Shown in pieces: positions 5,701 through 60,500 of a stretch of 64,000 nucleotides of DNA. The notes under the pieces are model-generated. The model saw nothing but the letters and a program-made list of their open reading frames with translations. It was not told where the DNA came from and searched no databases. Each line of letters opens with the position of its first letter. Within the stretch, counting starts at the first letter, position 1. A program made the position numbers and the translations under genes. The DNA lies in assembly GCF_000190735.1 (NCBI RefSeq), contig NC_015177.1, forward strand, positions 992,001 through 1,056,000. Direction: 5' to 3'. This DNA comes from Pseudopedobacter saltans DSM 12145 (GTDB lineage Bacteria; Bacteroidota; Bacteroidia; Sphingobacteriales; Sphingobacteriaceae).

Positions 5701-5888
5701 ATGGAGAAATGGAGACTATTTTAAACTTCATTGTAAATGTAAATCCTTATGTTTCATCTTCAAGAACAAGAGATCGTAAGACGAAAATCTATACGTATAC
5801 TTATAGTATAGATGCTGATAAGGCAATATTACTGCCAGATCCGGCTAAGATTCAAAAAATTAAAAAATTTCCTTCAAAAGAGTTTTAA
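2718..5888 (+). CDS. Secreted glycoside hydrolase family 2 enzyme (beta-galactosidase-like)
   Basis: 1056 residues with a signal peptide. The GH2 order is clear: a sugar-binding jelly roll (WDGWGIYRKK, then VWLNGKYLGDHKGGY and GGINRDV), an Ig-like sandwich ending in LWSPETPYVY, and a TIM barrel beginning near NGKEVHVHGQNRHEE. The acid/base motif MGNE gives E464. The usual nucleophile motif is not obvious: the equivalent region reads WLYADHGADREY (D560, with a glutamate six residues on), which may mark a distinct subfamily. C-terminal Ig-like domains and a region of about 200 residues of unknown role follow. Its place among GH28 genes suggests removal of beta-linked side-chain sugars, for instance galactose, from pectin. 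Confidence 0.85.
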   Translation: MKKLINKTSLCFLLTASCMTFSTDLVKGQLPDPIILKEANIKLPKDPKRISKTINENWTFNYFPKKDADKAGYEQPGFNDAKWSVVAVPHTWMTYETTGELHPYVKNASPKDSPYWWDGWGIYRKKIVIGKEFADKKLFVEFDAVQKYSKVWLNGKYLGDHKGGYGGFYFDITDAVKFGEENLLVVAANNTMDDKYSIPPMSAGNFDVYGGINRDVRIVIKDKLHIPYQGSYKHEGGTFVTTPVVNQKEGVVNVLTYVKNDYKEDKNVKLVTIITDADNKEIDRMEVSKILSTDKIHQFSQKSKTINKPNLWSPETPYVYNVHTELYLDNKLVDTYYSPLGFRWFKWDYTKNKLHLNGKEVHVHGQNRHEEYVWLGGAFPKWIAMRDMKDIRYGLEHNFMRTAHYSHDASIYHFTDRNGIFINEELPNIKNQVFNQEVQEQNLREMIRRDRNHPSIFFWSMGNETTDAADSKWAVEEDTTRIVTSRHVYNDSAGEFNPHTEKNMSIEGFLRCTIKGWYSKDERDLEPTDGQHAGTEENDVKRALEKNVQSHYGSVWLYADHGADREYVNSPLKHINPKGWVDSWRNPKYKYYLWQANFATKPMVFIQYHYWRKQYIGQKKNFMIHSNCDVVELFVNGKSKGKKNLNAANQFTTTFNDILVEKGIIEAVGTKKDGTKVSYKIEMADDAKKIVLEASHTKQFAGRDGVIEIRAKAFDKNGVQVIGARPTLKWTVKGPATLVGPESYTSDIHKVEESEGTMYIDLPVTNLIRSTGEPGKVEITVSTSDLETGKVEVEFVAKDKSDVVKGIEEPVLSLQGREAIPHNMTQVSRIIAPQEMKYFTGELQYPMDKIKPSVTAFIKKENPTISTTTLEFNYVIAIFTQMMQANNGRLVADDYNFTVDQYNISREITRFIDKQDFPQAYKDELKDYYAYNIVFKGRDKNFIYQKDLIAKIPTGGKSVILNAKQKKYKDVIYTSETDLKKLVHQVYPETAKLEDGEMETILNFIVNVNPYVSSSRTRDRKTKIYTYTYSIDADKAILLPDPAKIQKIKKFPSKEF

Positions 5889-5908
5889 GAAAAGACAATC
5901 AGATTAAT

Positions 5909-5940
5909 ACACACTGCAGCGAATTAGTGTTGCAGTGTGT
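5909..5940 (+). promoter_or_regulatory. Intergenic stem-loop before the tandem GH28/GH49-like genes
   Basis: A perfect 10-bp inverted repeat (ACACACTGCA and its complement) encloses a 12-nt loop between the GH2 stop and the next start at 5956. There is no downstream T-run, so it is not a classical terminator. It could be an mRNA processing or stability element, or an operator. The role is inferred. Confidence 0.5.
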
Positions 5941-5955
5941 AAATACTCACAATGT

Positions 5956-7509: not shown

Positions 7510-7519
7510 GCTGTTACAA

Positions 7520-9079: not shown

Positions 9080-9085
9080 CAACAA

Positions 9086-10567: not shown

Positions 10568-10642
10568 AATGAAAAAATAAAGCTTATATGGAGTAGTCTA
10601 TTAAAAAAAATATTAACCAATTATAAACCAAAAATTATAAAT

Positions 10643-12604: not shown

Positions 12605-12611
12605 TATTGAG

Positions 12612-15173: not shown

Positions 15174-15205
15174 TGGTAAAAAAGTGAACTAAAAATAAAA
15201 TTAGA

Positions 15206-39941: not shown

Positions 39942-41762
39942 ATGTGTGGAATTTACGGATCTACTATCAAGTATAGCGATGACGTTGTACGTTCGAAACT
40001 TGGCATTATAAATTTTAGAGGACCTGACTATTGTGGAATTATGCAAATTGATGACGTGACACTTGGACACAATAGGTTAGCAATTTTGGATCTGGACTCG
40101 CGTTCAAACCAGCCACTAAGTTATTTTCATCTCCAAATAGTATTTAATGGAGAAATTTACAATTATAAAGAAATAAAGGAAAAACTATTAAAAAAAGGAT
40201 ATAGGTTCTCTACTAAATCGGATACAGAGGTTATTTGTGCAGCGTATTTGGCTTACGGTAAAGAATGTTTAGACCATTTTAATGGTATGTTTGCTTTTGT
40301 AATATATGATTCGACAAGAAAGCGGTTCTTTGGTGCAAGAGATAGGTTGGGAAAAAAACCATTGTACTATAGTCACCAGGGGAGGTTATTTGAATTTGCC
40401 AGCCAGTCTTCTCAAATTAAAATAAATAGGGAGTTTTCGCTGGACAACCAATCTGTAAATGATTATTTGATTTGGGGATATATACCGGAACCAAATTCTA
40501 TTTGGAAAGAGGTAAAGCAATTACCTGCAGGAAGTTTCTTTGTGTATGACCTTGAAAAAGGTGCATTGGAAATTGATAAATATTGGGATGTCGATTATGA
40601 CCGTAAAAATATCTTCAGCGGTACTTATGACGATGCAAAAATTAAGCTGAAAGAGATTTTAAACGATGCGGTTTCGATAAGAATGCATGCGGATGTTCCA
40701 TTGGGTGTTTTTCTTTCCGGAGGAATCGACTCGTCATTGGTAGCGGCTATTGCAGCTAGTAAAAAAGATAAAGTCAAGACTTTTTCTATTAAATTTCAAG
40801 AAAAGGATTTTGATGAAAGTCAATATGCGATTCAAGTTGCCGAGCATTTACGAACAGAGCACCATACAATCTTGTGCAACTATGATGAAGGAATAGATTT
40901 GATTAATAATTTTTCTACTTATTATGATGAACCTTTTGCGGATTCCAGTGCAATACCTACTATGTTATTAAGCAAACATACCAGAAAACAGGTTACTGTT
41001 GCTTTAAGTGGAGATGGAGGTGATGAAGCTTTTGCCGGATACGAAAGATATAAATGGATAAATCTGGTAAACAAAAGCATATTCAAATTACCATTACCAA
41101 TAAGAAAGCCTATAGGAAAACTGGTATCTATGTCGCCAAAATACAAGCATAAACTAATAGGGTTGGGAGTTGGAGAAAAGGACATAGAAAGCCTTTATAT
41201 CAAAATGCTTGGAGGACTAGAAAACTCCTGGATTAAAGATCCTGAAAAAGGAATGCCGACTCCCTTTATGCATATTTTCGAAAATAAATCTGATAAAGAC
41301 TTTTTAGAAAGAATTTCTGATTTTGATATAAAAACCTATTTAAATGGCGATATCAATACTAAAGTAGATAGAGCTTCAATGGCTTTTTCTCTCGAATCCC
41401 GGGCTCCGTTAATGGATTATAGAGTGGTTGAATTTAGCAGAAGTCTGCCGTTAAGTTTTAAATATAACCGCGGAAATCAAAAAATGATACTGAAAGATGT
41501 TTTATACGATTATTTGCCTCATAGACTATTTGATAGACCTAAATCCGGCTTCACGATGCCTCTCAAAGATTGGTTTAGAAATGAGTTAAAATCGTATGTT
41601 ATGGACAACCTTTCTAGCTCAAGTTTACAAAATATTCCAGGGATAAACATCCAGAGAACACAGGAAATTATAAAACAGCATATGGATGGCAAATGGAATA
41701 GATATCCACAAATATGGAAATTGCTAGTACTATCACAGTGGTTGAAAAAACATAATTTCTGA
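39942..41762 (+). CDS. asnB: Asparagine-synthase-like glutamine amidotransferase, copy 1
   Basis: 606 residues. Class II glutaminase N-domain with catalytic Cys2 (MCGIYGS), FRGPDYCG, LGHNRLAILDL, FNGEIYNYKEI; then ATP-pyrophosphatase domain with FLSGGIDSSL and SGDGGDEAFAGYERY. Both active sites look complete. In O-antigen and capsule loci, AsnB homologs such as WbpS amidate uronic acids to uronamides rather than make asparagine. The surrounding glycosyltransferases support that reading here; a true asparagine synthetase cannot be excluded. Confidence 0.85.
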   Translation: MCGIYGSTIKYSDDVVRSKLGIINFRGPDYCGIMQIDDVTLGHNRLAILDLDSRSNQPLSYFHLQIVFNGEIYNYKEIKEKLLKKGYRFSTKSDTEVICAAYLAYGKECLDHFNGMFAFVIYDSTRKRFFGARDRLGKKPLYYSHQGRLFEFASQSSQIKINREFSLDNQSVNDYLIWGYIPEPNSIWKEVKQLPAGSFFVYDLEKGALEIDKYWDVDYDRKNIFSGTYDDAKIKLKEILNDAVSIRMHADVPLGVFLSGGIDSSLVAAIAASKKDKVKTFSIKFQEKDFDESQYAIQVAEHLRTEHHTILCNYDEGIDLINNFSTYYDEPFADSSAIPTMLLSKHTRKQVTVALSGDGGDEAFAGYERYKWINLVNKSIFKLPLPIRKPIGKLVSMSPKYKHKLIGLGVGEKDIESLYIKMLGGLENSWIKDPEKGMPTPFMHIFENKSDKDFLERISDFDIKTYLNGDINTKVDRASMAFSLESRAPLMDYRVVEFSRSLPLSFKYNRGNQKMILKDVLYDYLPHRLFDRPKSGFTMPLKDWFRNELKSYVMDNLSSSSLQNIPGINIQRTQEIIKQHMDGKWNRYPQIWKLLVLSQWLKKHNF

Positions 41763-41768
41763 TGGATT

Positions 41769-42842
41769 ATGGCAAATCGAATACTCTTTATTACTTCTGG
41801 AATGAACAGAGGAGGAGCTGAAACTCAACTCTTAAAAGTAGCAATGTTTCTTAGAGATAAGAAATACCAAATCAAGATAATCTCCTTAACATCTACTAAT
41901 GAATTTGATATAGATTACGATAAGGAAAAGATACCAGTGGTATTTCTAAAACCTTGGAAAACTAACTTTTATTCAAATTTAAAAACGCTTTACTCTATTA
42001 CTAAGGATTATAAGCCAAATGTTGTAATAGCTTTTATGTTTATTTCCATCATTTTTGCTCGTTTATTGAAACTAGTTTTTAGATTCAAACTGATCTCGAG
42101 TATAAGAACATCGGTCCTTCCGAGAAAATGGTATATCCCCTTTAAGCTAACAAATGGATTAGATGATGAGATAATCTATAATTCTATTGCTTCTAAAATA
42201 GATTTTGAAACAAAAAAGCTGATAAATAAAGGAGGTAAAGTTATACATAATTGTATATCAATACCCGAAACAGAAGATCTGATTAACGTAAAATCAATAT
42301 CTTTTGTATGGGTGTGTATAGCACATTTCAGATGGAACAAAGATTATAAAACTTTATTTCAAGCTATCGAAAGAATGAAAGGGCTAAATTTTCGAGTGGA
42401 TATTGTAGGGGGGATTGATAAAAAATATTCTTCCTGGGCAAATCAATTTATTGAACAAGCAGATATTGGAGCTCATGTAAGGATTTTAGGGTTCAGAGCA
42501 GATGCGCAACATTTTTTGAAACAGAGTAATGCATTTGTTCTATCTTCTTTTTCCGAGGGGATGCCAAATGCACTTTTAGAAGCCATGGCTCATGAAAAGC
42601 CTGTTGTAGTAACGGATATTGACTGTAATAGGTTAATCGTACAGAGCGTAAAATGTGGATTTTTAGCCGAAAAGCAAAATGCAGAGGATTTAGCTATAAA
42701 AATGAAAGCTATAATGGAAATGACAGAAGCAAAAAGATCTCTGTTGGGGCAGAATGGAAGGATTTATATTGAAGAGAATTTTTCCGAAGGTGTAGTTCTT
42801 GATCATTGGCTTTCTACAATAAAATCATTAGCAACAGCCTAA
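41769..42842 (+). CDS. Glycosyltransferase family 4, third copy
   Basis: 357 residues. GT-B fold: ILFITSGMNRGGAETQLLKVA, later VLSSFSEGMPNALLEAMAHEKPVV. It has a shorter, more diverged N-terminal domain than the other family 4 genes. It is 6 bp after the first amidotransferase and is followed by a 76-bp inverted-repeat element. Donor unknown. Confidence 0.88.
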   Translation: MANRILFITSGMNRGGAETQLLKVAMFLRDKKYQIKIISLTSTNEFDIDYDKEKIPVVFLKPWKTNFYSNLKTLYSITKDYKPNVVIAFMFISIIFARLLKLVFRFKLISSIRTSVLPRKWYIPFKLTNGLDDEIIYNSIASKIDFETKKLINKGGKVIHNCISIPETEDLINVKSISFVWVCIAHFRWNKDYKTLFQAIERMKGLNFRVDIVGGIDKKYSSWANQFIEQADIGAHVRILGFRADAQHFLKQSNAFVLSSFSEGMPNALLEAMAHEKPVVVTDIDCNRLIVQSVKCGFLAEKQNAEDLAIKMKAIMEMTEAKRSLLGQNGRIYIEENFSEGVVLDHWLSTIKSLATA

Positions 42843-42857
42843 TTAATTTATAAACCA

Positions 42858-42933
42858 AGAGAGGCTGTTTCAAAAAGGTATTTTATCGTTTTGAACGCTC
42901 TCAACGAAAAGATCTTTTTTGATCAGCCTCTCT
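42858..42933. repeat. 76-bp imperfect inverted-repeat element between GT4 and the second AsnB-like gene
   Basis: The outer 10 bp are a perfect inverted pair (AGAGAGGCTG at the left, its complement at the right). Inner arms continue as CAAAAAGG / CTTTTTTG-type pairing and CGTT/AACG, so nearly the whole segment folds into one hairpin. The GAGGCTGTTTCAAAA-like end resembles terminal repeats of some Bacteroidetes insertion sequences, suggesting a MITE or IS relic. No transposase is present. It may alternatively be a processing or attenuation hairpin. Confidence 0.5.
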
Positions 42934-42959
42934 TATTCATTGAAAATTTCAGTTTAATT

Positions 42960-44855
42960 ATGTGTGGAATTTTTGGAACCTTAAATTTCAGCGCTTCGCA
43001 TAGGGCGCCAGAAATATTCTGTGGTCTTTATCATCGTGGTCCTAACGATCGTGGCCTTTATAAGAACGATAATGTTGAACTTTTCCATACCAGATTAGCT
43101 ATTCAGGACTTAAGTGAGCAGGGAAAGCAACCAATGCGTCAAGACCATGTTGTTATAGTTTTCAATGGAGAAATTTATAACCATCTTGAGCTTCGAAAAA
43201 AATATAATTTACAAGCAGAATCAAATTCAGATACCCAAACCATTTTGATGCTTTATAAAAAGCTTGGAATGCAAATGCTGAAAGAATTCGATGGGATGTT
43301 TGCTTTCGCACTTTATGATGAGCAAAAAAAGCAGCTCTTTCTTGCAAGAGACAGAGCGGGGAAACGTCCACTTTATGTTTATCAAAAAGGCGATTCCTTA
43401 GTATTTTCATCAGAACTAAACACCTTGTATAAAATAACAAAGCCCTGTGTTAATTATGAATCACTATCATCTTATTTATATATAGGCTATCATTATAAAC
43501 AAGATACTCCATATAAGGAAGTTATCGATTTACAAGCTGGAAGCTATTTGCAAATAGATACCGTCAGTTGTAAATCAAATAGTATTAGATGGTTTGATAT
43601 TAGTCAACATTATTTTAAAAGCAACAATATCAAATATCCAGATGCAATTACTGAATTGGATGCTAAATTAAATTTAGCTGTAAAAAGAAGAATAGAAAGT
43701 TCAGATTTGGATGTAGGTTGTTTTTTAAGTGGGGGAATTGATAGTGGGTTGGTGACTGCGATTGCATCAGGATATAAAGAAAAGCTAAAAACATTCACAG
43801 TAAAACTAGACGGAGCATATGATGAATCAGCTTTAGCTTATGAAGTTGCCAACAAATATGCAACCGAACATACAGTTGTCGATATAACTTTCGACGATTT
43901 AAATCAAAATATTGAAAAAATTCTGATTAATTACGGAGAGCCATTTTGTGACAGCTCTGCAATACCAAGCTATTACGTTGCGAAGGCTGCCAAGCAACAC
44001 ATCACGGTAGTATTAAACGGAGATGGAGCTGATGAATTATTTGGGGGTTATAGGCGATACGTACCTTTCAGATATTTCGATTTTTTTAATACTTCAGCTT
44101 TGTCAAAATACACTTTCAAATCTTTATTGAATATTTTGCCGATTGCAAATGAGAAAAAAAGCAGATACAACTATTTTTATCGCATGTTGAAGTTTGCAAG
44201 TTATCGTAAAGATATTGAGCTATATACATCTGCATCTTATGACCTTCTTGTCGGATTTGAAAAATACTTTGTAACCCAGCCAAATTTGGGGGAAATAGAA
44301 AATGATCTTTTGCGATATAAACAGTATAATCTTTCTTCATTAAGCAAGATTTTATTGATAGACTTTGAGGCAATCCTATTCAGTGATATGCTTCCGAAAA
44401 TGGACATCGCTACCATGTCGAATTCATTAGAAGGAAGAAGCCCTTTTTTGTCAAAAGAGATCTTAGAATTTGCACCTGGTTTAGAAGATAATTTTAAAAT
44501 AAATAATCTGCAAACTAAGAAGATTTTAAGAGACTTATCGCAAAAATATCTTCCGGACAATCTGATAAACCAACCGAAAAGAGGTTTTGAAGTTCCTTTG
44601 AAACGATGGATGGATACGCAGTTGAAGGAAATTGTAAATGACTATTTATTATCAAAAGGTGCTTTATATCCAAGTTTAGTAAACAAGAATTTTATTCACG
44701 ATTTAATGAACAGAAAAATAAAAATATCCGATGAACGCCGGGCCAAGATATTATATAACATTTTCGCTTTGGAAGTATGGCATAAAAATTTAAAGTCTAA
44801 TGTAGTTTCTCACGATACGACATTTTATAAATCACAAAACTTACAGCTTACCTAA
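42960..44855 (+). CDS. asnB: Asparagine-synthase-like glutamine amidotransferase, copy 2
   Basis: Start set at ATG 42960 because class II amidotransferases need Cys directly after the initiator Met (MCGIFGT); a TTG at 42891 would bury this cysteine and overlap the hairpin element. 631 residues. Motifs: YHRGPNDRG, HTRLAIQDLS, FNGEIYNHLEL, FLSGGIDSGL, NGDGADELFGGYRRY. The glutaminase and synthetase sites are intact. The differing sequence from copy 1 argues against a simple recent duplication. Possible role: amidation of a second uronic acid or aminoacyl group on the EPS. Confidence 0.85.
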   Translation: MCGIFGTLNFSASHRAPEIFCGLYHRGPNDRGLYKNDNVELFHTRLAIQDLSEQGKQPMRQDHVVIVFNGEIYNHLELRKKYNLQAESNSDTQTILMLYKKLGMQMLKEFDGMFAFALYDEQKKQLFLARDRAGKRPLYVYQKGDSLVFSSELNTLYKITKPCVNYESLSSYLYIGYHYKQDTPYKEVIDLQAGSYLQIDTVSCKSNSIRWFDISQHYFKSNNIKYPDAITELDAKLNLAVKRRIESSDLDVGCFLSGGIDSGLVTAIASGYKEKLKTFTVKLDGAYDESALAYEVANKYATEHTVVDITFDDLNQNIEKILINYGEPFCDSSAIPSYYVAKAAKQHITVVLNGDGADELFGGYRRYVPFRYFDFFNTSALSKYTFKSLLNILPIANEKKSRYNYFYRMLKFASYRKDIELYTSASYDLLVGFEKYFVTQPNLGEIENDLLRYKQYNLSSLSKILLIDFEAILFSDMLPKMDIATMSNSLEGRSPFLSKEILEFAPGLEDNFKINNLQTKKILRDLSQKYLPDNLINQPKRGFEVPLKRWMDTQLKEIVNDYLLSKGALYPSLVNKNFIHDLMNRKIKISDERRAKILYNIFALEVWHKNLKSNVVSHDTTFYKSQNLQLT

Positions 44856-44909
44856 GAGCTGACTGATCTAACGAAAAACATTTATTAATCTTCTTAAATA
44901 CTTTCTATC

Positions 44910-45989
44910 ATGAAAATTTTAGTAACAGGAAGCGCAGGCTTCATTGGATTCCATTTAGTGAACAGTTTATTACAAAGGGGAGACGAAGTTGTAGGGATAG
45001 ATAATTTAAACGACTATTATGACGTCAATTTAAAATATGCAAGGTTGGCTCAGGCAGGAGTTTATCAGGAAACAATAACATATAAAAAAGAGATTCGAAG
45101 CTCACTTTTTGAAAACTATATTTTCGTGCAACTGGATATTACGGATGAAAAAGGCTTAAGCGCATTGTTTAAAAAGCATAAATTTGACGCTGTCTGCAAT
45201 TTAGCTGCTCAAGCAGGGGTAAGGTATAGTTTAATAAACCCGAGTACGTATATCGATACAAATATCAAAGGTTTCCTGAATATTTTGGAATGTAGCAGGC
45301 ATACCAACATGAAAAATCTGGTTTATGCAAGTTCTTCCAGCGTATATGGATTAAATAAAAAGATGCCTTTTAATGTGAAAGACAATGTAGACCATCCTGT
45401 TTCGCTGTATGCCGCTTCTAAAAAAAGTAACGAATTAATGGCTCATGCCTATAGTCATTTATTCAATATTGCTACAACCGGCTTGCGCTTCTTTACTGTT
45501 TATGGCCCATGGGGCAGGCCTGATATGGCAGGTTTTTTGTTTGCTAAAGCCATATCGGAAGGAAAATCTATTCAGATATTTAATAACGGAAACATGAAAC
45601 GGGATTTCACTTATATAGATGATATAATAGCAGGTGTTATTACGGTTATAGATAATCCTAATTATAACGGAACGGAAAGTTGGAGTGGACTAACACCAGA
45701 TCCGTCTTGTTCTAAAGCGCCGTATAGAGTATTTAATATAGGAAGAGGGAATTCTATAGATTTGATGAGTTTTATCAACGAAATAGAAGGTAATCTCGGT
45801 ACAAGAGCTCAGAAGACATATTTACCTTTACAAGATGGCGATGTAGTATGTACTTGGTCCGATGTTAAAAATTTAAAAAAAGAGTTCGACTATGAGCCAA
45901 AAGTGTCTGTAAAAGAAGGTGTAAAAAGATTTACAGATTGGTATAAAAGTTACTATCTGGATAGACAAGATCAGCATATAGCTGTTTAA
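44910..45989 (+). CDS. NAD-dependent sugar epimerase, UDP-glucuronate 4-epimerase-like
   Basis: 359 residues. Short-chain dehydrogenase fold with GSAGFIG for NAD binding, IDNLNDYYDVNLKYARL (typical of the GlcA-4-epimerase/CapI group), AAQAGVRYS, and catalytic Ser plus YAASK (SSSSVYG, SLYAASKKSNE). Family members convert UDP-glucuronate to UDP-galacturonate. This makes a galacturonate-containing EPS plausible. A 366-bp gap and the pectate lyase gene follow on the same strand. Confidence 0.85.
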   Translation: MKILVTGSAGFIGFHLVNSLLQRGDEVVGIDNLNDYYDVNLKYARLAQAGVYQETITYKKEIRSSLFENYIFVQLDITDEKGLSALFKKHKFDAVCNLAAQAGVRYSLINPSTYIDTNIKGFLNILECSRHTNMKNLVYASSSSVYGLNKKMPFNVKDNVDHPVSLYAASKKSNELMAHAYSHLFNIATTGLRFFTVYGPWGRPDMAGFLFAKAISEGKSIQIFNNGNMKRDFTYIDDIIAGVITVIDNPNYNGTESWSGLTPDPSCSKAPYRVFNIGRGNSIDLMSFINEIEGNLGTRAQKTYLPLQDGDVVCTWSDVKNLKKEFDYEPKVSVKEGVKRFTDWYKSYYLDRQDQHIAV

Positions 45990-46355
45990 ACATATTTAAA
46001 TGACATTGTAATGACATTTTATTGATCTATATCATAGGTTTTTAGTTTTATAATTTGTATTATTTTGTAACAAATTTAGTACATTAAAACAAAAATGACA
46101 TTTTTAAATCTGAAAGGCAAATCCTACGCTTCTGGATTGCCCTCTGTTTTGAATAATTTTATTTTTTTATAAATTTTTTAGTTATATAAATATGATAAAT
46201 TACTGACATTTTTAATTAAATTTTCAATTTAATTAAATTTGGTTTTATTGAAAAACAATTGATGTCATATAAATAAATATTGATTTTCCTAATTCTTTCG
46301 AATGTACCCTATTCATTTATACGCTCGTTTAAATGAGGTATAAAAAAAGAATTAA
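45990..46355 (+). promoter_or_regulatory. 366-bp AT-rich regulatory region upstream of the pectate lyase gene
   Basis: No ORF is supported here. It holds TGACATT at 46001, 46012, 46096 and 46204, a perfect 12-bp inverted repeat with a 3-nt loop at 46211-46237 (TTTAATTAAATT arms), and a bulged 8-bp hairpin at 46116-46142 that may weakly terminate the upstream operon. The repeated heptamer suggests an operator array for the lyase gene; no binding protein can be named. Confidence 0.5.
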
Positions 46356-48080
46356 ATGAAAATCAAAAACAGTTTTAAAAAAGGCTCACTCATGACATCG
46401 TTCTTATTAGTTGCGTTAATATTTTCGCAATGTCAAAAGGATGTTAACACAATTCCTAATATTGAGGAAGAAGCAGCAAGAAAAAATAGTAATGGGACAA
46501 CCTCAATTACTTCAGGTGAACAAGTTAAATTAGATTTGACCAAAGCATCTAAGGAATCTGGCTATGCATATTATATGGATTTGAATATCCCTATTTCAGG
46601 AGATTCAGATACTCAGCCAACAGTCTCAAGTTTAAAAGTATTTGAAAACGGAAAAGAATTGGGTCCAGGGCATGCTTTACATAAAGAAATAAGAAGTACT
46701 GGTAATGGACGCTTTAGCCATTGGGGCAATAGTTTATACTTTTCAGCTTCAGACAATACAAATCCCTCAACTAATGGAAGAACTTATACCATTTCGTATG
46801 CGGGATCTAGCGGTGCCGGAAGTGGAACGGGTATAACTTCTCCGATTGTCGCAGACGGACAGGTTAAACTGGATTTAACGAAAGCGTCTAAAGAATCTGG
46901 TAATGCTTATTATATAGACATAAATGCTCCTATTGCAGGCGATTCAGGAAGTCAACCAACTGCCTCAACTTTAAAATTATTTGAGGATGGGAAAGAATTA
47001 GGACCGGCACATGCTTTACATAATGATATCAGAAATTCTGGGCAGGGACGTTTTAGCCATTGGGGAAATAGCTTATATTTCTCAGCATCAGATAATACAA
47101 ATCCGTTGACTAACGGGAGAACTTATACTGTGTCTTACACTGGTTCTACGGGCTCTACCAATAATTCAGAGTCAGGAGTTGTAACAACACCTCCATCTTT
47201 TTCTACAGACTTACCTATCGGTTTTGCTTCCGTAAATGGAAAAACTACTGGAGGACAAGGTGGAAGAACTGTAACTGTAAGTACTATTGCAGAATTTACC
47301 AAAGCAGTTGGTTCGTCAGAAACATTAATCGTTCAGGTATCGGGTAATCTTAAAGGTACCGGAATGATTAGAGTGGGATCAAACAAAACGATATTAGGGC
47401 TAAGTGGTTCTTCTTTAGACGGTGCAGGTTTGGCCATATATGAAGTAAGTAACGTTATTGTAAGAAATATGAGAATTAGTAATGTTGTAGGTGGCGATTG
47501 CGTTACTATAAAATTTGCATCTCATCATATCTGGATTGATCATAACGAGTTCTGGCATGATAGAAATCATGGGTGGGATTATTATGATGAATTACTTGAA
47601 GTGACAGACCGTTCAGATTTTGTTACAATTTCCTGGAATAAGTTCCATGACAGTAATATCGCATTACTTATTGGTAGTGGCGACTTACAAACTACGGATA
47701 TTGGGCATTTAAGAGTAACACTGCACAATAACTATTTCTATAATAACTCCGAGAGACAACCGTCTACAAGATTTGGATATATCCATTGTTTCAATAACTA
47801 TCTTTATAATGGAAGTGGATACGGTATTGGTGTGACTATGGATGCTACAGTTAGAACAGATAATAACTACTTTGAAAGTCAGAAATATCCAATTTTCACA
47901 GATTACAATGCAAAGCCTGGATATGTTAGTGGAGCAAGTACAAATATTTATAAAAACTCCGGTGAAAATAAGATATCAACAAAAGAATCTAATTGGATAC
48001 CTGAATATGAATATAAATCTGCTTTAATACCAGCAGCAGATGTACCGAATGTTGTAAAAAATGGGGCAGGACCTCGATAA
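46356..48080 (+). CDS. PL1-family pectate lyase lipoprotein with two tandem N-terminal modules
   Basis: 574 residues. Lipobox FSQC ends the leader, so it is a lipoprotein. Residues about 54-148 and 167-261 are two near-identical modules (both contain KLDLTKASKESG, KELGP, GRFSHWGNSLYFSASDNTNP) of unknown fold, perhaps binding modules. The PL1 beta-helix starts at about 285: IWIDHNEFWHD, DELLEVTDRSDFVTISWNKF, LIGSGD, and RQPSTRFG (R467-R472), the arginine motif of PL1. The enzyme cleaves polygalacturonate-type chains by beta-elimination in a calcium-dependent way. Embedded in an EPS locus right after a UDP-GlcA-4-epimerase-like gene, it may trim the organism's own polymer. Confidence 0.9.
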   Translation: MKIKNSFKKGSLMTSFLLVALIFSQCQKDVNTIPNIEEEAARKNSNGTTSITSGEQVKLDLTKASKESGYAYYMDLNIPISGDSDTQPTVSSLKVFENGKELGPGHALHKEIRSTGNGRFSHWGNSLYFSASDNTNPSTNGRTYTISYAGSSGAGSGTGITSPIVADGQVKLDLTKASKESGNAYYIDINAPIAGDSGSQPTASTLKLFEDGKELGPAHALHNDIRNSGQGRFSHWGNSLYFSASDNTNPLTNGRTYTVSYTGSTGSTNNSESGVVTTPPSFSTDLPIGFASVNGKTTGGQGGRTVTVSTIAEFTKAVGSSETLIVQVSGNLKGTGMIRVGSNKTILGLSGSSLDGAGLAIYEVSNVIVRNMRISNVVGGDCVTIKFASHHIWIDHNEFWHDRNHGWDYYDELLEVTDRSDFVTISWNKFHDSNIALLIGSGDLQTTDIGHLRVTLHNNYFYNNSERQPSTRFGYIHCFNNYLYNGSGYGIGVTMDATVRTDNNYFESQKYPIFTDYNAKPGYVSGASTNIYKNSGENKISTKESNWIPEYEYKSALIPAADVPNVVKNGAGPR

Positions 48081-48116
48081 GTCATTGGGTTTATAATCCA
48101 AATTAATAAATGTTTG

Positions 48117-48149
48117 AAACACGCTTGTATAATACAAGCGTGTTTTTTT
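48117..48149 (+). terminator. Intrinsic terminator of the pectate lyase gene
   Basis: AAACACGCTTG pairs with its complement around a short AT loop, followed by a run of seven T. It lies 36 bp after the lyase stop. Its presence inside the 5' extension of the next reading frame supports the later start (48206) chosen for that gene. Confidence 0.85.
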
Positions 48150-48205
48150 CTGGAAGTATTTCTACGCTATCAATTCTTCTTACTACTGATTATAAAACTG
48201 TATCT

Positions 48206-49390
48206 ATGGAACGCAAAAAAATACTCATAGTCTGCGATTCCTCTAAATCCCTTCTGGATTTTAGAGGTAAATTAATAGAAAGCCTAGCATATAAAAACGA
48301 AATATTTGTTTTTACACCACAGATTAAGCAAGATAATGTCCGTGATTTATTAATTAGATTAAAAGTCAATATCTATGAAAACAAATTGGAATCTAGCAAT
48401 GTATCCATATTTTCAGATTTAAGATATATACTGGATCTCTATAAACTGATTAATAAAGTAAAGCCTGATGTATGTTTTTCTTACGCTTTCAAACCGGTTA
48501 TTTATAGTAGTTTGGTAGCTACTGTCTGTAGAGTAGGTAGTGTTGTGCCAATGTTAACCGGTTTAGGATATAATTTCTCAACAAACGGTTCGAAAAAGAA
48601 ATTGGTTACCCGAATAACTAAATACCTTTTAAAATTAAGCTTGATGTCTCCTAGAACCAATTTAATTCTACAGAACAAAGACGATTATCAAACTTTAATG
48701 GCTGAGAATGTAATATCCTTAAAACGTAAAGCTTTTGTCGTTAATGGTTCGGGAGTAGACTTGTCACATTATAACGTTTCAGATCCACCGCCAGGTAACC
48801 GTAATTTTTTGATGATTTCCAGATTAATAAATGCAAAGGGCATAAAGGAATTTTACGAGGCAGCCAAGCTGGTAAAAGAGAAACATCCTGAATCTTCGTT
48901 TACTCTTATTGGAGCGTATGATAACAATATCGACGCTATAGAAAAGGCATTGTATAATGAAATTTGTTCAGGTACGACTATCAATTACTTAGGAGAAGTA
49001 CAGGACGTAAGAGAACATATTAAGGCTTCTTCGGTAGTTGTTTTGCCTTCTTATTATGGGGAAGGTGTGCCACGGTGTTTGCTCGAAGCAATGGCTATGG
49101 GAAGAGCAGTAATTACAAGTGATTCTGTTGGATGCAGAGAAGTGGTGAATTTAGAAAGAGGAAAGCAAAACGGCTTTTTAATTCCAGTAAAGAATTATAA
49201 GGAATTGGCCGATAGAATGATCTATTTTTTGTCTCATCCAAAAGACATTAAATCCTTTGGGTTAAATGGATACAAATACGCACTGGAAAAATTTGATGTT
49301 ATAAAAGTCAATAAACACATGGTTGATATCATAGAAAACAACCACTATACTCATAGCAAAATTGTCGGCTTTCCGGTTTTGTTGAGTTAG
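48206..49390 (+). CDS. Glycosyltransferase family 4, fourth copy
   Basis: Start at ATG 48206 (MERKKILIVCDSSKSL); an upstream ATG at 48110 would place the terminator inside the coding region. 394 residues. GT-B fold with FSYAFKPVIYSSL, MISRLINAKGIKEFYEAA, LPSYYGEGVPRCLLEAMAMGRAVITSD. This WbpH/Pgl-like pattern is common for capsule family 4 enzymes. It opens the last part of the EPS locus, after the terminator, so a new promoter must lie just upstream. Confidence 0.88.
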   Translation: MERKKILIVCDSSKSLLDFRGKLIESLAYKNEIFVFTPQIKQDNVRDLLIRLKVNIYENKLESSNVSIFSDLRYILDLYKLINKVKPDVCFSYAFKPVIYSSLVATVCRVGSVVPMLTGLGYNFSTNGSKKKLVTRITKYLLKLSLMSPRTNLILQNKDDYQTLMAENVISLKRKAFVVNGSGVDLSHYNVSDPPPGNRNFLMISRLINAKGIKEFYEAAKLVKEKHPESSFTLIGAYDNNIDAIEKALYNEICSGTTINYLGEVQDVREHIKASSVVVLPSYYGEGVPRCLLEAMAMGRAVITSDSVGCREVVNLERGKQNGFLIPVKNYKELADRMIYFLSHPKDIKSFGLNGYKYALEKFDVIKVNKHMVDIIENNHYTHSKIVGFPVLLS

Positions 49391-49456
49391 AAAATCCCTT
49401 TCTTATCCAGATTAATTTTTAAATCTATTATAAACCTCTCAAAATTGTAATTGTAC

Positions 49457-50425
49457 ATGCGACACTACGCCCGAAGAGTTAAGGCAATTGGCGGCTATTT
49501 GGAATTGCAATTGCCCTCAGGTAAAGAGTATTATCCTGATTTAATCAAGCTGAATACAGCAAGAAATGCGTTGGAATATATCGTTAAAGTAAATCAATAC
49601 TCTTTGGTTTATGTGCCTTATTATACATGCGAAGTTATTTTAGAACCGCTAAAAAAGCTTGGAGTCACTTTTCATTTCTATACTATAGATAAGAATTTAG
49701 ATCCTATTATAGATTTTAAAATAGCTCCAACAGAGTGTCTGTTATATACCAATTACTTTGGCATTAAACAAACTACTGTTAACAGACTTAGCAGATCCAT
49801 TAAAAACTTGATTATAGACAATTCACAAGCTTTTTTTGCGAAACCAATAAGAGGAATAGACACTTTTTACTCCTGCAGGAAATTCTTCGGAGTATCAGAC
49901 GGAGCCTATCTGCAAACTAATATTTTATTATCGACAAAATTTGAAAGAGACGTTTCTGTATGGCGTGTATCACATCTTTTGAAAAGTATTGATCTCAGTG
50001 TAGAAGAAGGATATCAGGACTATTTAGAAAGCAGGGCCTCTTTAAGTAATGGTGCCATTAAAAGAATGTCTAAGTTAACTGAGAGGGTGCTTAAAGGAAT
50101 TGATTATGAAGAATGTAAGTCTATCAGAATACGTAATTTCAAAATAATCCATGAGGGATTGGGAAGATATAACACACTTTTTATAAACCTGGAAAATATT
50201 GATGGACCTATGGTTTATCCGTTTTTAATAAATAAAAAAATCAGAAAAAAGCTAATAGATAAAAGAATATATATAGCAACCTATTGGCCTAATGTGTTAA
50301 AATGGACTAGTGAGCGAATGTTTGAAAATTATCTCACTGAGCATTTGGTCGGAATCCCGATAGATCATAGATATAATGAAGAGGATATGGAACGAATTTT
50401 AAATATAGTAAAGCAAATGATATGA
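49457..50425 (+). CDS. Diverged DegT-like PLP-dependent protein
   Basis: 322 residues from ATG 49457 (a TTG two codons upstream is possible). The pattern LNTARNALEYIV, VYVPYYTCEVILEPL, NYFGIKQ, IIDNSQAFFAKP, and SCRKFFGVSDGAYL matches the DegT aminotransferase order; the lysine of SCRKFF (K142) is at the Schiff-base position. It is about 50 residues shorter than the two canonical copies, so it may be an aminotransferase of unusual specificity. Its stop overlaps the GNAT start by 4 bp (ATGA), which ties the two steps together. Confidence 0.65.
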   Translation: MRHYARRVKAIGGYLELQLPSGKEYYPDLIKLNTARNALEYIVKVNQYSLVYVPYYTCEVILEPLKKLGVTFHFYTIDKNLDPIIDFKIAPTECLLYTNYFGIKQTTVNRLSRSIKNLIIDNSQAFFAKPIRGIDTFYSCRKFFGVSDGAYLQTNILLSTKFERDVSVWRVSHLLKSIDLSVEEGYQDYLESRASLSNGAIKRMSKLTERVLKGIDYEECKSIRIRNFKIIHEGLGRYNTLFINLENIDGPMVYPFLINKKIRKKLIDKRIYIATYWPNVLKWTSERMFENYLTEHLVGIPIDHRYNEEDMERILNIVKQMI

Positions 50426-50955
50426 GCGCAGCTATTTACTTAAGAGAATTAAGCATCGAGGATGCTGAAATATTATATAAATGGAGAAATGAACCGGAAA
50501 TTTGGGTATTTACAAAATTCCGCCCTCTTACAGAAGTCACATTGGAAACAGAAACAAAGTGGTTAAAGAAAGTTCTTAATAACAAAAATGAGTATCGTTT
50601 TGCAATTTGTTTAAGTCAAGATGATAAATACGTTGGTAATGTACAGCTTTTAAATGTTGAGAATGGTAATGCGGAATTACACATTTTTGTTGGGGTAAGA
50701 ACTCTGTGGGGAAAAGGAATAGGAAAAGCAGCTACAATTAATATACTAGATTTTGCTTTTTATGAACTTAAATTGGAATCAATTTTTTTGGAAGTTCATA
50801 AAGAAAATAAGAAGGCTAAAGGTATTTATAACTCACTAGGATTTAGAGAACTAAATCGAAAAGGTCAGGAGGGTAACACTTTTGCCTACATGGAACTTCG
50901 CTCTAAATCATATAGAATGAATTGTGAAAAGCTAAAATTAAAAAAGGTCTCGTGA
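50422..50955 (+). CDS. GNAT acetyltransferase (PseH/RimJ-like), copy 2
   Basis: 177 residues, clearly paralogous to the gene at 36309: IYLRELSIEDAEILYKWRNEP, EIWVFTKF, AELHIFVGVRTLWGKGIGKAA and FLEVHKENKKAKGIYNSLGF. It overlaps the PLP-protein gene by 4 bp. Transamination followed by N-acetylation of a sugar amine is the likely pair of steps. Donor acetyl-CoA is the family norm; another acyl-CoA is possible. Confidence 0.78.
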   Translation: MSAAIYLRELSIEDAEILYKWRNEPEIWVFTKFRPLTEVTLETETKWLKKVLNNKNEYRFAICLSQDDKYVGNVQLLNVENGNAELHIFVGVRTLWGKGIGKAATINILDFAFYELKLESIFLEVHKENKKAKGIYNSLGFRELNRKGQEGNTFAYMELRSKSYRMNCEKLKLKKVS

Positions 50956-51001
50956 AGTAGCAGAAACCTTAACATCTACCTGACAAACAAATTTAAATTT
51001 T

Positions 51002-52036
51002 ATGATACATCTAATTGATTGTAAAGAGAAAAACAGATGGGATAAGTACGTTAAAGAATCACTAGAAACAGCCTTCTGTCACACCAACGATTATCACTCC
51101 TTAGAAAAACACAAAGAGTCATTTTTATTTGTATTTGAGGAAGATTGGGGATTTATTGCAATTCCATTTTTAAAGCAGCCTATTCCGAATACAAATTATT
51201 ATGACTTAACCTCTGTGTATGGTTATGGCGGTCCCATTTCAAATTTAGACCTCCAAAATTTGGATGAGGAGCGGTTAAATTTGTTTGAAGAGAGCTTCTT
51301 GCGTTTTTTGAAAGAAAACAATTTTGTCTCGGTTTTTTTAAGGCTTAATCCATTTACTAACCAAAGTTGCTTATTTAAAAATATTGGTGGGCTATTTCCA
51401 AATGGAAGAACAGTTGCTATTGATTTAAACTTGAGCGTGGAGGAAAGGAGAAGACAATATAGAGCAAACGTAAAATATTCTATAAGAAAATGCAAACAAA
51501 AGGGGTTTTGTTTGGAAGAAGTAAATTCGGAAAAAGGATTACACCATTTTATGGATATTTATAATGCAACTATATATCGTAAAAATGCATCTGAGTTTTA
51601 TTTCTTTAGTTTTGAATACGTCTCGAAATTATTGCGTTCTACTGAATTTGAAGCAAAAATATATGTGGTCTATGACGGAGATATACCAATATGTGGTACA
51701 TTGATAATTTTTTATAATGAAATAGTCCATGTACATTTAATAGGGACAGTTTATGATTATTACAAGTATTCTCCGGCAAAATTCACAGTTGACAGATTGT
51801 GTGATATTGGGAAAGAAAAAGGAATGAAATTTTTGCATTTAGGAAGCGGAGTTTCTTTTAAAGAGGATTCGTTATTTGAATGGAAAAAAGGGTTTTCTAA
51901 TATTCTTCTGGATTATCATAGCTGGCGCTACGTTCCTGAAAAAAGTATCTATTTAACATTAGTGAAAAATAGGGGAATAGACCCAAATACGCTGATAGAC
52001 TTTTTTCCTTTATATCGCTATAAGTTAATAGGATAG
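51002..52036 (+). CDS. FemAB/GNAT-like acyl or aminoacyl transferase, second copy
   Basis: 344 residues, paralog of the gene at 34276. Both share the FLFVFEED / FLFVYEED beginning, the LTSVYGYGGPIS segment, KFLHLGSGVSFKEDSLFEWKKGFS, and a PLYR end. The shared DLTSVYGY(A/G)GPIS element is a strong family signature. It follows the GNAT gene, mirroring the order transferase-oxygenase-GNAT in the other half of the locus. The two copies may put the same group on two different residues. Confidence 0.7.
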   Translation: MIHLIDCKEKNRWDKYVKESLETAFCHTNDYHSLEKHKESFLFVFEEDWGFIAIPFLKQPIPNTNYYDLTSVYGYGGPISNLDLQNLDEERLNLFEESFLRFLKENNFVSVFLRLNPFTNQSCLFKNIGGLFPNGRTVAIDLNLSVEERRRQYRANVKYSIRKCKQKGFCLEEVNSEKGLHHFMDIYNATIYRKNASEFYFFSFEYVSKLLRSTEFEAKIYVVYDGDIPICGTLIIFYNEIVHVHLIGTVYDYYKYSPAKFTVDRLCDIGKEKGMKFLHLGSGVSFKEDSLFEWKKGFSNILLDYHSWRYVPEKSIYLTLVKNRGIDPNTLIDFFPLYRYKLIG

Positions 52037-52081
52037 AGCATTCTATTGATTAATTTATTTAAAATTTCCTACCAAATACCT

Positions 52082-54028
52082 ATGAAAAAAATAATTTTTA
52101 ATGAAAAAATATATTCCAGGTGGCTTATATTATTTATTGATAGTTTGATAATGACTTGGACATTTTGTATGTCATTTTTATTAGTCCACAAATTTCAATA
52201 CCAAACAATTTCAATCCGCGAATTTTTGACCATGCTTATATTAAGTAATACAATTACTGTGTTGGTTTTTGTAGTAATGAAAATTCATTGTGGAATTATC
52301 AGACATTCTAATACAGGAGATATTCTGAGAATAGTAACCGCTGTAGCAGTAAGCAATTTGGCTCTGTGGGTTTTATTTCAATTATTAACAAATTTAAGTC
52401 TTGCTAGTAATGTAAAATGGTTTAATGAAGTTATAATGGTTAACTTCTTTATGGAAGCGTTGCTATTAGTTGTTCTGAGAACAGCTGTCAAAACTTTGTA
52501 TAATTATGTTAAACAAACGGAAAATAAGAAAATAGAACCTATTCTAATATACGGATCAGATAAAAAAGCTATTCTAATTAAACAGGCTTTTGATTTTGCA
52601 TCTGAAAGTAATTATAAATTGATAGGCTTTGTTGATAATAATACGGACAGATGGCATAAAAATATTGAACAAAAAAAGGTTTATCCGATAACTGATATCA
52701 AACGACTAAAAGAAAAGTATCAGGTACAAAAGATAGTTATAATGGACGAAAGTTTGAGTAAAACAGATCAATCCAGTCTTATAGATAAATGTATTTCTCT
52801 TGGAATTAAAGTGATTATAGTACCTCCGTCTGCGCAATGGTTAAATGGCCGTGTTAATTTGAAACAAATGCGGGAACTTAAAATAGAGGACTTGCTACAA
52901 AGAGATCCGATAGTTTTGGAGAATGAGAATGTTTTAAAAGAAGTAGAAGGTAAGTGCGTATTGGTGACAGGTGCTGCAGGGTCAATTGGTTCCGAGATAG
53001 TAAGACAACTTATAAAATTCCAGCCTGGTAGAATAGTCCTCTGTGATCAGGCAGAAACACCGCTACACGAATTGCAAACTAGCATTGAAGATAACTTTCC
53101 GGATGTATCAGTCTCTGCTTTTATGTGTAATATTCAGAATAATACCAGACTTAAACGATTATTTAGTACTTATCATCCGCAAATTGTTTTTCATGCAGCT
53201 GCTTCCAAACATGTTCCAATGATGGAAAATCATCCATGCGAGGCTATTTTAACGAATGTTTTAGGAACGAAACAGTTGGCAGATATCTCAATGGAATACA
53301 AAGTCGAAAAATTTGTAATGATTTCTACGGATAAAGCCGTTCGACCAACAAATATAATGGGCGCATCCAAGAGATTAGCAGAAATGTATATCCAGTCTTT
53401 AAATTTTTATCAACTTAGGGACTTACCAATGGATGACATGCTAAAAATGCCGTTGATGTCTCAAATTAGGACAAAATTTATCACTACAAGATTCGGTAAT
53501 GTACTTGGTTCAAACGGTTCTGTAGTTCCAAGATTTAGAGAACAAATAGAAAAAGGCGGACCGATAACAGTGACTCATAAGGAAATAACGAGATATTTTA
53601 TGACCATACCTGAAGCCGTACAACTTGTCTTAGAAGCAGGAGCCATGGGCAAGGGAGGAGAGATTTTTATTTTCGAAATGGGAAAACCGGTGAAAATATT
53701 TGATTTGGCTAAAAATATGATAAAGTTAGCTGGATTTTCAACTAATGAGGTAGATATTGTGTTTACAGGACTAAGACCCGGAGAAAAGCTCTATGAAGAA
53801 TTACTGAATGATAAAGAGCAGGTTATGCCAACTTATCATGAGAAGATTAAAATATCCAGAGTTGTAAATCATCATCACAACCACATAAAGAAATCAATAG
53901 ATGAGTTATTAGAGCTTGTCGCTTTGGATGATGATTTTAGCCTGGTAAAGAAAGTAAAAGAAATTGTTCCCGAATATATAAGCAATAATTCAATTTACAA
54001 CGAATTAGACAGGATGGTGATCAACTGA
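52082..54028 (+). CDS. WbpM/PglF-like membrane nucleotide-sugar 4,6-dehydratase
   Basis: Start at ATG 52082; a TTG at 52046 would add twelve residues. 648 residues: four N-terminal membrane helices (about 1-120), a linker with a CoA-binding-like Rossmann fold (YGSDKKAILIKQ), and an SDR domain with TGAAGSIGSEIV (G297 onward), HAAASKHVPMMENHP, STDKAV, and PTNIMGASK (M426, K430), which is the Ser-Met-Lys triad of long WbpM-type dehydratases. It turns UDP-GlcNAc into the 4-keto-6-deoxy sugar that a DegT enzyme then aminates. It ends the EPS locus. Confidence 0.92.
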   Translation: MKKIIFNEKIYSRWLILFIDSLIMTWTFCMSFLLVHKFQYQTISIREFLTMLILSNTITVLVFVVMKIHCGIIRHSNTGDILRIVTAVAVSNLALWVLFQLLTNLSLASNVKWFNEVIMVNFFMEALLLVVLRTAVKTLYNYVKQTENKKIEPILIYGSDKKAILIKQAFDFASESNYKLIGFVDNNTDRWHKNIEQKKVYPITDIKRLKEKYQVQKIVIMDESLSKTDQSSLIDKCISLGIKVIIVPPSAQWLNGRVNLKQMRELKIEDLLQRDPIVLENENVLKEVEGKCVLVTGAAGSIGSEIVRQLIKFQPGRIVLCDQAETPLHELQTSIEDNFPDVSVSAFMCNIQNNTRLKRLFSTYHPQIVFHAAASKHVPMMENHPCEAILTNVLGTKQLADISMEYKVEKFVMISTDKAVRPTNIMGASKRLAEMYIQSLNFYQLRDLPMDDMLKMPLMSQIRTKFITTRFGNVLGSNGSVVPRFREQIEKGGPITVTHKEITRYFMTIPEAVQLVLEAGAMGKGGEIFIFEMGKPVKIFDLAKNMIKLAGFSTNEVDIVFTGLRPGEKLYEELLNDKEQVMPTYHEKIKISRVVNHHHNHIKKSIDELLELVALDDDFSLVKKVKEIVPEYISNNSIYNELDRMVIN

Positions 54029-57363: not shown

Positions 57364-57558
57364 TTCCTAATTTTTAATATTCGCCGGCACTATTAATTGA
57401 ATTTTCCTGATTTTTTGAATAACGAAGCATATTTGTTATGTTTACATGTAAGAAAATACTCCAAAATTTTAAAATAAACTACCCCGATATTGCCCCTTTA
57501 AATTTAAATTAGCATAATTGAGAAAACTATTTCTCCACCAAAATCTAATTTGTCATAT

Positions 57559-60500
57559 ATGCTTGCTGCAAAGAGATGGAGTTTTAAACTGTTCATAATC
57601 CTTTTTCTTGTCTCTCCGTCAATTTTCGCCCAAATGAAAAATACATTTGAGCATATCACTGTTGAACAAGGTCTTTCCCAAAGTGCAGTGTTATCCATTG
57701 CGCAGGACAGCTTGGGCTTTATGTGGTTCGGAACAAAGGACGGTTTAAATCGGTACGATTCGAAAAATGTAGAGGTTTATCGAAGTAAATCAAAAGATCC
57801 TAAATCTTTAAGCAGCAGTATAAATATCAATACCCTTCTTGTTGATTCTAAAGGTTTTTTATGGATAGGAACGCAACATGGCTTAAATAAGTATTTGGCC
57901 GAAAGTGATTCTTTTCAGCAATTTCTACATCGGGGGGATAATCCGAAAACAATTTCTAATGAGGTTATCAGATCTTTATTCGAAGATAATGAAGGGAATG
58001 TTTGGGTAGGTACCGAAAAGGGATTGAATAAAGTGCTGCCAGACGGAAGTATCGAAAGGTTTGAAGTAGAAAAGTATAGTAAAAATGGCTTAACAAATGA
58101 CTTTATTAAAACAATTTATCAGGATCGGCAGGGCATTATGTGGTTGGGAACTACCGGTGGTTTGGTGAAGATGACAAATGCGGGAAAAACGTATAAATTT
58201 AAATTTTACGAGTCAGATAAAAATAAAGAAAATTCAATATCAGGTAATGATATTAGTTCAATAATCGAAGATTACCAAGGGAATTTGTGGATAGGAACAC
58301 GATTAAAAGGGTTCAATCTCTTTGATCGCAACAAAGAAACATTTGTTAGATTCGATATTAGGTCGGGGGTGGGGTTAAGCAGTGATGATATCAGGAAAAT
58401 TACGGTAGATAAAAACGGGAAGCTATGGATTGCCACACTTGGAGGAGTAAACATTTTTAATCCTCTAATTAGCAAGGTAGAACAAATATTTGTTAACGAA
58501 CCCGAGAATCCCAACAGTTTAAGCCAAAATTCAACCTATGATATTTATCAGGATAAATTGGGCTCTATGTGGATCGGAACCTACTTTGGCGGGCTGAATA
58601 TTACCCACACTTTAAATCCTCCATTCACTTTATATCAGCATTTCTCTTATAAAAATTCTCTTAGTAGCAATATAGTTAGCGCAATGGTGGAAGATGGTTA
58701 TGGGAATCTATGGATAGGGACAGAAGGAGGCGGTTTAAATTATTTGGATCGGAAAACGGGTAGATTTAAAGAATACAAACATACTCAGGGCGAGGAAAAT
58801 TCGCTAAGTTCCAATCTTGTAAAAGATCTTGCTTTAGACGCAGAAGGGAATTTATGGGCAACGACGTTTGAGGGGGGCTTAAATGTATACAATCCTAAAA
58901 CTGGTAAATTCCGAATATATAAACATACTTCATCATTAAAATCAAATAGATTATCTAATATCTTAATAGACAGCAAACAAAAGGTTTGGGTAGGAAGCAG
59001 AAATGGCCTGTTTATTTATGATAGCCATTTAGATATCTTTAAACAAACAGATGTACCGCATTCCTTTATATCATCAATTTATGAAGATAGTGAGGGCCGA
59101 ATCTGGGTAGCAAGTGATACCGGTTTGTTTTTAAAAGGGAACAAATCAAATCACTTTGTCAATATCACATTAAAAGATAATCCATCCTGGTTTTTACGTA
59201 TAAATGCAATATCAGAAGATTCAAAAGGAAAAATATGGTTTGCTACACATAACGGAATATTAGTTTACTCGGATAAAGATAAGACGGTTAAACTTTATAC
59301 CGAAAATCAGGGTTTGCCTACCAATTCTATTTTAGGAGTAATAGAAGATAACCAAAAGAATTTATGGTTTAGTACGACAAAAGGGCTGGTTAAGTTTGAA
59401 AAAGGCATATTTAAAACTTACAATACGGCAGATGGTCTTGCAGGGAATGTTTTTAATTTTAACTCTTTTTTGAAAGGCGGAAACGGAGAACTCTTTTTTG
59501 GTGGTTTTAATGGTATGATAAGCTTTAGGCCGGAGGATATCAAGGAAAATAAAGCAAAACCTACAGTAATTTTAACCGGAGTTTATTTACCTGATAAAGT
59601 TGTTAAAGTAGGTGACGAAACAGAAATATTAAAAAAGGCCATTTGGGATACTCCTAAAATAGGTATTCCTTATAAAGAAAGTGTTTTCAGTCTCGACTTT
59701 GCAGTTTTGAATTACATAAGTCCAAATAAAAACAAATACGCATATAAATTAGAAGGCATCGATAAGCAATGGATAGAGCTGCAGTCACCTAATATTTCCT
59801 TTAATAAACTTTCTGATGGAGAGTATATATTATTGGTAAGAGGAAGTAATAATGATGGTGTTTGGAGTGATATTAAAAAGCTTAAGATAACGATCTATCC
59901 GCCGTTTTGGAAAAGTTGGTGGGCTTATCTTTTTTATCTTGCGATAATAGCGGGTATTGGTTTTGTTGTCATCAGGTATTTTATCATGGAAGCCCTGTTG
60001 AAAAAGGAACATGAAGTTCACCAATTGAAAGTAGATTTTTTTAGAAATGTTTCTCACGAAATCCGAACTCCTTTAACCCTGATTTTAGGTCCAATTGAAA
60101 AGTTAATAGGAGATCCGGAAACGAGTTTACCAATTAAGGACCAATTATCAGGAGTTAATAAACATGTAAAGCGTCTGACCAAACTTATTAACGAACTGCT
60201 AGACTTTAGCAAAGTAGAAGCAGGTAAGATGAAACTGCGTGTTGAAAGAGTCAATTTGGTTGATTTTACACATGATATTTATCAGTCTTTTCAATACAAG
60301 GCAAGAGAAACAGGTATTCAATATCGTTTTAGCAGTGCCAAGTCGTCGATAGAAGCTTATATAGATAAAGCTCAGTTAGAAAAGGTTTTCTATAATTTAT
60401 TGTCAAATGCTTTTAAATTCACGCCTAATGATGGTAGGGTTGATGTTACTATAGAAGAAACTGCTACTGATATTTTGGTAAGAATAATCGACAGTGGAAA

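Follow-up and report, generated by a model that had tools for sequence, protein, structure and literature searches.

The DNA analysed here (the window) is a stretch of 64,000 nucleotides from Pseudopedobacter saltans DSM 12145 (GCF_000190735.1, NC_015177.1, positions 992,001–1,056,000 of the forward strand; GC content 35%). Profile matches delimit in it, at ~22.7–54.5 kb, an exopolysaccharide (EPS) locus in which a lipoprotein-like protein with a PL1-type fold (termed PL1 below) is encoded next to a UDP-glucuronate 4-epimerase-like protein (EPI). We consider it probable that PL1 is a lyase acting on the bacterium's own galacturonate-containing EPS and suited to altered, perhaps amidated, residues; the changes in its active site suggest that this polymer, not plant pectin, is its substrate.

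PL1 belongs to a conserved block of the EPS locus

PL1 (46356–48080, + strand, 574 amino acids) comprises an N-terminal signal with C26, two repeats of ~98 residues and, from about residue 280 to residue 574, a right-handed parallel β-helix of the PL1 type; its match to PF00544 (Pectate_lyase_4; E = 2.5e-31, 109.4 bits for a cut-off of 24) is the only one in the genome. The gene lies in the order AsnB1–GT4–AsnB2–EPI–PL1–GT4, which covers positions 39942–49390 and in which EPI (44910–45989, +) is an SDR protein (Epimerase, E = 8.2e-56) and the GT4 glycosyltransferase immediately 3′ of PL1 is referred to as GT4d (48110–49390, +). All the components that a preliminary description had grouped in one EPS locus, namely two AsnB-type amidotransferases, a UDP-glucuronate 4-epimerase-like protein and a lipoprotein-like PL1, were matched by profile searches. 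Both amidotransferases had been assigned to positions 42960–48080, which is correct for AsnB2 (42960–44855, +), whereas AsnB1 (39942–41762, +) lies just outside.

This arrangement recurs in the host family, of which 399 genomes were searched. As no more than 3 or 5 candidates per genome were scored, depending on the search, the counts should be read as minimum values and a missing gene is not proven absent; neighbours were labelled by their best BLAST match to window genes, some "AsnB1" being only 38–41% identical. A close relative of PL1 (E ≤ 1e-30) was found in 65 genomes, every one of which has EPI at E ≤ 1e-110. At E ≤ 1e-141, a threshold set after the scores had been seen and applied to genomes that are related, EPI is present in 68 genomes, 64 of them with PL1. 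Among 77 stretches surrounding PL1 matches, 58 have EPI as the co-oriented gene immediately 5′ of PL1, the other 19 being cut at the stretch border, interrupted by a contig end, or featuring a distant PL1 or a PL1 located elsewhere in or outside the EPS locus. Counted by genome, the EPI–PL1 order is found in 58 of 65, including the window and two genomes whose stretches are split in two (G007 and G036). The 58 EPI–PL1 stretches also contain genes for GT4d (57), CapD (57), a FemAB-like protein (57) and PhyH (54), and each has at least one AsnB gene (AsnB1 in 40, AsnB2 in 23). That this gene order recurs in relatives of several genera indicates that the grouping is more than chance, and the presence of EPI in all PL1-bearing genomes, with PL1 mostly inserted between EPI and a GT4 gene, supports the earlier proposal that PL1 is tied to a galacturonate-type EPS locus.

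The same data bear on a different view, namely that PL1 is an ordinary pectin-scavenging pectate lyase located in the EPS locus by chance. The genome does contain 18 GH28 matches and 17 GH88-family matches (16 above the cut-off), and five of the GH28 matches fall in the first 17 kb of the window; however, most family genomes that carry PL1 have it flanked by EPI and GT4d, its neighbours in the window are EPS genes, the genome has no second PF00544 match, and the triad lysine of pectate lyases has been lost (see below). We regard this view as very unlikely.

The active site of PL1 departs from that of pectate lyases

The catalytic triad of PL1 pectate lyases is Lys-Arg-Arg according to PMC9820310, corresponding to K190, R218 and R223 in PelC numbering; replacing the triad lysine by alanine is reported to have nearly abolished the activity of a pectate lyase. 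The residues at these positions in the window protein are I435, R467 (the base) and R472, and we did not class it as a pectate lyase because it failed this triad test. Its calcium-ligand positions are D381, D411 and E415 by alignment, with the D381 region aligning unsteadily and the model being devoid of metal. We propose that the carboxylate-handling site has changed because the substrate is not pectate.

The 64 proteins that occupy the same syntenic slot display three active-site states. This set includes second copies from one genome and near-copies; excluded from it were repeat-only open reading frames (ORFs) and 14 proteins whose gene does not immediately follow EPI, another PL1 or a contig end. 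In state 1 (20/64), to which the window protein conforms, Ile or Val replaces the lysine and the calcium-ligand positions are intact; in state 2 (17/64), the lysine is retained; in state 3 (27/64), Leu is found at the lysine position, Asn at the position of the second arginine, and Gly/Ser and Ser/Thr/Ala/Cys/Ile at two calcium positions. All 27 state 3 proteins carry a new Asp between the calcium positions, within a Lys-Asp pair that might still bind metal. In a quick tree of the slot proteins (SH-aLRT support, some long branches), state 3 requires a single change (SH-aLRT 99) and forms the sister clade to the window protein.

Altogether, 47 of the 64 proteins have Ile/Val or Leu instead of the triad lysine; the base arginine is conserved in all 64, as are D395, H396 and H477, the replaced calcium positions notwithstanding. 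The loss of the lysine, together with a state 3 clade that keeps the base arginine, points either to altered, perhaps uncharged, substrate residues or to a lost pectate-type activity. Nor do these residue states support the idea that PL1 cuts only unamidated stretches of the polymer, given that the triad lysine is missing from the window protein and that none of the usual carboxylate-handling residues remain in the sister clade, whose base arginine is conserved.

Might PL1 be a pseudo-enzyme, whose PL1 domain binds EPS as a scaffold, anchor or export helper and cuts nothing? Such a role would fit the frequent replacement of a lysine whose substitution by alanine is so detrimental in a pectate lyase, as well as the existence of the N-terminal repeats as stand-alone proteins. 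Nevertheless, a decaying active site would hardly be expected to retain R467, D395, H396 and H477 in all 64 proteins, including those with altered calcium positions, and we judge this alternative unlikely. Coming back to PL1 as a lyase, a more specific scenario can be put forward tentatively, although we hold it to be rather doubtful: the PL1 lineage would track polymer chemistry, the base arginine remaining fixed and the carboxylate-handling residues being switched off as galacturonate becomes amidated, giving rise to uronamide lyases able to cleave without a charged residue at the cleavage point. The switch-off would have followed two routes, (i) the change of Lys to Ile/Val or (ii) the joint replacement of the calcium positions, the Lys and the second Arg.

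Sugar supply and candidate amidation

The best solved relative of EPI is 5u4q (422.8 bits), an entry named dTDP-glucose 4,6-dehydratase; among the 25 NCBIfam families listed for EPI, none is matched above an equivalog cut-off. R204 of EPI aligns with R185 of 6zl6, which we take to be the Bacillus cereus UDP-glucuronate 4-epimerase. PMC12338863 describes Arg185 as the product-carboxylate arginine of UDP-glucuronate 4-epimerase. EPI probably makes the sugar that PL1 would cut. Outside the window, the genome contains a UDP-glucose dehydrogenase-like gene and a TviB-like gene, both of which exceed the general nucleotide-sugar dehydrogenase cut-off and neither of which exceeds an equivalog cut-off. 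Note that, in the locus of one relative (G023; L021:427–2819), a TviB-type dehydrogenase gene scoring above the cut-off precedes another epimerase-like gene (29% identity to EPI), so that an N-acetyl uronate may also be present in some polymers of the group.

AsnB1 (Asn_synthase, E = 2.3e-97) and AsnB2 (class II glutaminase and Asn_synthase domains, the latter with E = 1.1e-76) both possess the N-terminal MCGI and the ATP-site SGGIDS motifs; the longest ORF of AsnB2 spans 42891–44855, with the glutaminase start MCGIFG at 42960. In such enzymes, the N-terminal cysteine belongs to the glutaminase, and SGGxDS binds ATP. The best NCBIfam match of AsnB1 is TIGR03108, the EPS-type family, whose cut-off (816.9) is reached neither by AsnB1 (527.6 bits) nor by AsnB2 (362.3 bits); both exceed the cut-off of the asparagine synthase family TIGR01536 (267.1), with 439.9 and 384.8 bits, respectively. 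PMC7468200 places WbpS and WbqG in TIGR03108 and reports that P. gingivalis lost a uronamide when PGN_1234 (wbpS, a putative asnB) was deleted, which provides a genetic precedent for the preliminary view of WbpS-type AsnB homologs as uronate amidotransferases. With E ≤ 1e-150 as the threshold, AsnB2 was detected at 26 places, each of them next to EPI, in 23 of the 399 genomes, all of which bear PL1. A counterpart in G036 (L023:15704–17592), which is not among these 23 genomes, reads as two ORFs, which may reflect a disrupted gene or a mistake in the assembly.

The distribution of AsnB2 varies with the active-site state: it is present in 19/19 state 1 proteins with a visible flank, 7/17 of state 2 and 0/27 of state 3, AsnB1 being present in 27/27 of state 3. 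The difference between the Ile/Val and lysine states has an uncorrected p of 8e-5; the tree shows just 3 changes of AsnB2, the link is not significant by an independent-pairs test, and we therefore treat the association as a lead.

As regards the amidation step only, and thus overlapping with the other readings, there is a substantial possibility, albeit not the one we favour, that the two AsnBs are not uronate amidotransferases: one would make asparagine, the other would act on a different acid group, and the changes in PL1 would reflect the linkage or the adjacent sugars. The TIGR01536 and TIGR03108 scores and the disappearance of the AsnB2–active-site link upon tree correction speak for it, as does the fact that AsnB1 and AsnB2 are the only PF00733 proteins found in the genome, which makes asparagine synthesis by one of them possible; the confinement of AsnB2 to EPI–PL1 genomes (23/23) and the PGN_1234 deletion phenotype speak against it.

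N-terminal repeats of PL1

Repeat 1 (residues 52–149; 46509–46802, +) was recognized by alignment, the whole-protein Pfam scan having matched the lyase domain only, and repeat 2 (residues 165–262; 46848–47141, +) is 76% identical to it. The domain follows the pattern ENG..LGPAHS..H..I...G.GRFSHW..LYFS.SDN..P..NGR.Y; for the window copy of repeat 2, a Pfam search up to E = 1 yielded no match, and no clear counterpart emerged among solved folds. We infer that the repeats bind EPS. A stand-alone repeat-domain ORF is located just upstream of EPI in nine EPS loci (L067, L073, L077, L078, L080, L089, L100, L104 and L105), and eight of the nine start with a lipoprotein-like signal. The domain also occurs in 13 viral-contig loci and in a plasmid-encoded SGNH hydrolase of Solidesulfovibrio, whose gene shares its stretch with glycosyltransferase genes, and it is probably present in giant-virus proteins found by fold.

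Remainder of the locus and flanking genes

The 5′ part of the EPS locus (22721–42842, +) encodes Wza-like (22721), Wzc-like (23523), NusG (26035) and Wzx (26602) proteins, aminotransferases, glycosyltransferases, an initiating sugar transferase (32506), a Wzy-like protein and AsnB1; the Wzy_C-like match at 36850 is weak (28.2 bits, under the Pfam cut-off of 31.7). The locus additionally contains several GT2/GT4 genes and acyltransferase genes, and the rest of the conserved 3′ block (49451–54028, +) includes genes for a GNAT protein (50422), a FemAB/GNAT-like protein (51002) and a CapD-type dehydratase (52046). The protein encoded at 49451 (DegT3, a working label and not a family assignment) has no Pfam or NCBIfam match. 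EPI and PL1 are separated by an AT-rich gap of 366 bases (45990–46355), in which neither a promoter consensus nor an Rfam match was found; the gap measures 7–538 bases among relatives, exceeding 125 in 55/58. The five GH28 matches upstream of the locus lie at 1563–16576, a hybrid two-component regulator is encoded at 57550–61545 and a weak GH88-family match lies 1.5 kb beyond the window end, so that the EPS locus is placed between genes of the pectin-use type.

Proposed mechanism and points against it

UDP-glucuronate, supplied via the UDP-glucose dehydrogenase-like gene located elsewhere in the genome, would be converted by EPI into UDP-galacturonate and incorporated into the EPS repeat unit, a uronate of which may be amidated by one or both AsnB-type enzymes. 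The EPS would be exported by Wzx/Wzy/Wza; PL1, a presumed lipoprotein, would grip it with its N-terminal repeats and cleave it by β-elimination beside a galacturonate-type residue, with R467 as the base. Cutting could either set the chain length or release the polymer. What the sequences show directly is the gene order, its conservation, the fold and the residue states; where PL1 is located, EPS binding by the repeats, the enzymatic activity, the amidation and the biological role are deductions.

Several observations weigh against this scheme. The abundance of GH28 and GH88-family matches gives the genome the look of a pectin user. The module is patchy: a close PL1 was not found in 334 of the 399 host-family genomes, it is present in just 2 of the 18 genomes of the host genus, and 57 of the 122 genomes with EPI at E ≤ 1e-110 have no PL1. 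In seven of the 65 PL1-bearing genomes (G026, G600, which has a contig break, G613, G709, G712, G752 and G772), EPI and PL1 were not observed as immediate neighbours, and the more distant PL1s examined from the class outside the host family (L028, L106–L109) showed no EPS neighbours, as judged by window-gene references. The CQKDV sequence that follows C26 matches only partially the surface-export motif C-X-K-(D/E)2. Lastly, without its triad lysine PL1 may be inactive, the AsnB2–state link does not withstand the pairs test, and one of the genome's two PF00733 proteins may be devoted to asparagine.

If PL1 does act on the EPS of its own cell, it would provide a tool specific to the polymers made by a group of EPS-producing bacteria, and "pectate lyase" annotations in such loci would be misleading. 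The three active-site states found in one syntenic slot would then form a natural enzyme series for the change from charged to uncharged substrates in uronate lyases.

Comparison with known systems

Like AlgL and other EPS-locus lyases, PL1 would be a lyase required while the polymer that it acts on is being made; AlgL differs in its fold family and in its polymer. PL1 pectate lyases (7bbv and 7xks, the latter a B. clausii enzyme that we take as BacPelA) share with the window protein the fold, the base arginine, the second arginine and, by alignment, the putative calcium-ligand positions, from which it is set apart by Ile435 in place of the triad lysine, its biosynthesis locus and its N-terminal repeats. 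Concerning amidation, WbpS and WbqG are likewise AsnB-type enzymes whose genes adjoin uronate genes within a glycan locus (PMC7468200), but their known substrates are N-acetylated uronates and the window AsnBs score under the TIGR03108 cut-off.

The preliminary statement that no described system resembles this one was too strong in view of VexL and RbmB, although the exact combination of locus features had no match in the literature searched. VexL (PDB code: 6fi2) is a depolymerase with a PL1 fold that is linked to the secretion of a capsule; according to its entry title, it is periplasmic and associated with ABC-transporter-dependent secretion. By contrast, the window encodes a lipoprotein-like PL1 with extra repeats and an AsnB–EPI–PL1 block in a Wzx/Wzy-type locus, with Wzx, Wzy-like, Wza-like and Wzc-like genes instead of an ABC-transporter-dependent export locus. 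RbmB, the VPS lyase of Vibrio cholerae (PDB codes: 9ozl and 9ozd), is a β-helix lyase of the producer's own EPS, which contains a modified gulose with amide-linked glycine; it differs from PL1 by its sugar, by an identity of 18% in structural alignment and by its absence from the PL1 sequence matches. By analogy, a PL1-fold lyase dedicated to the EPS of P. saltans would work like VexL and RbmB.

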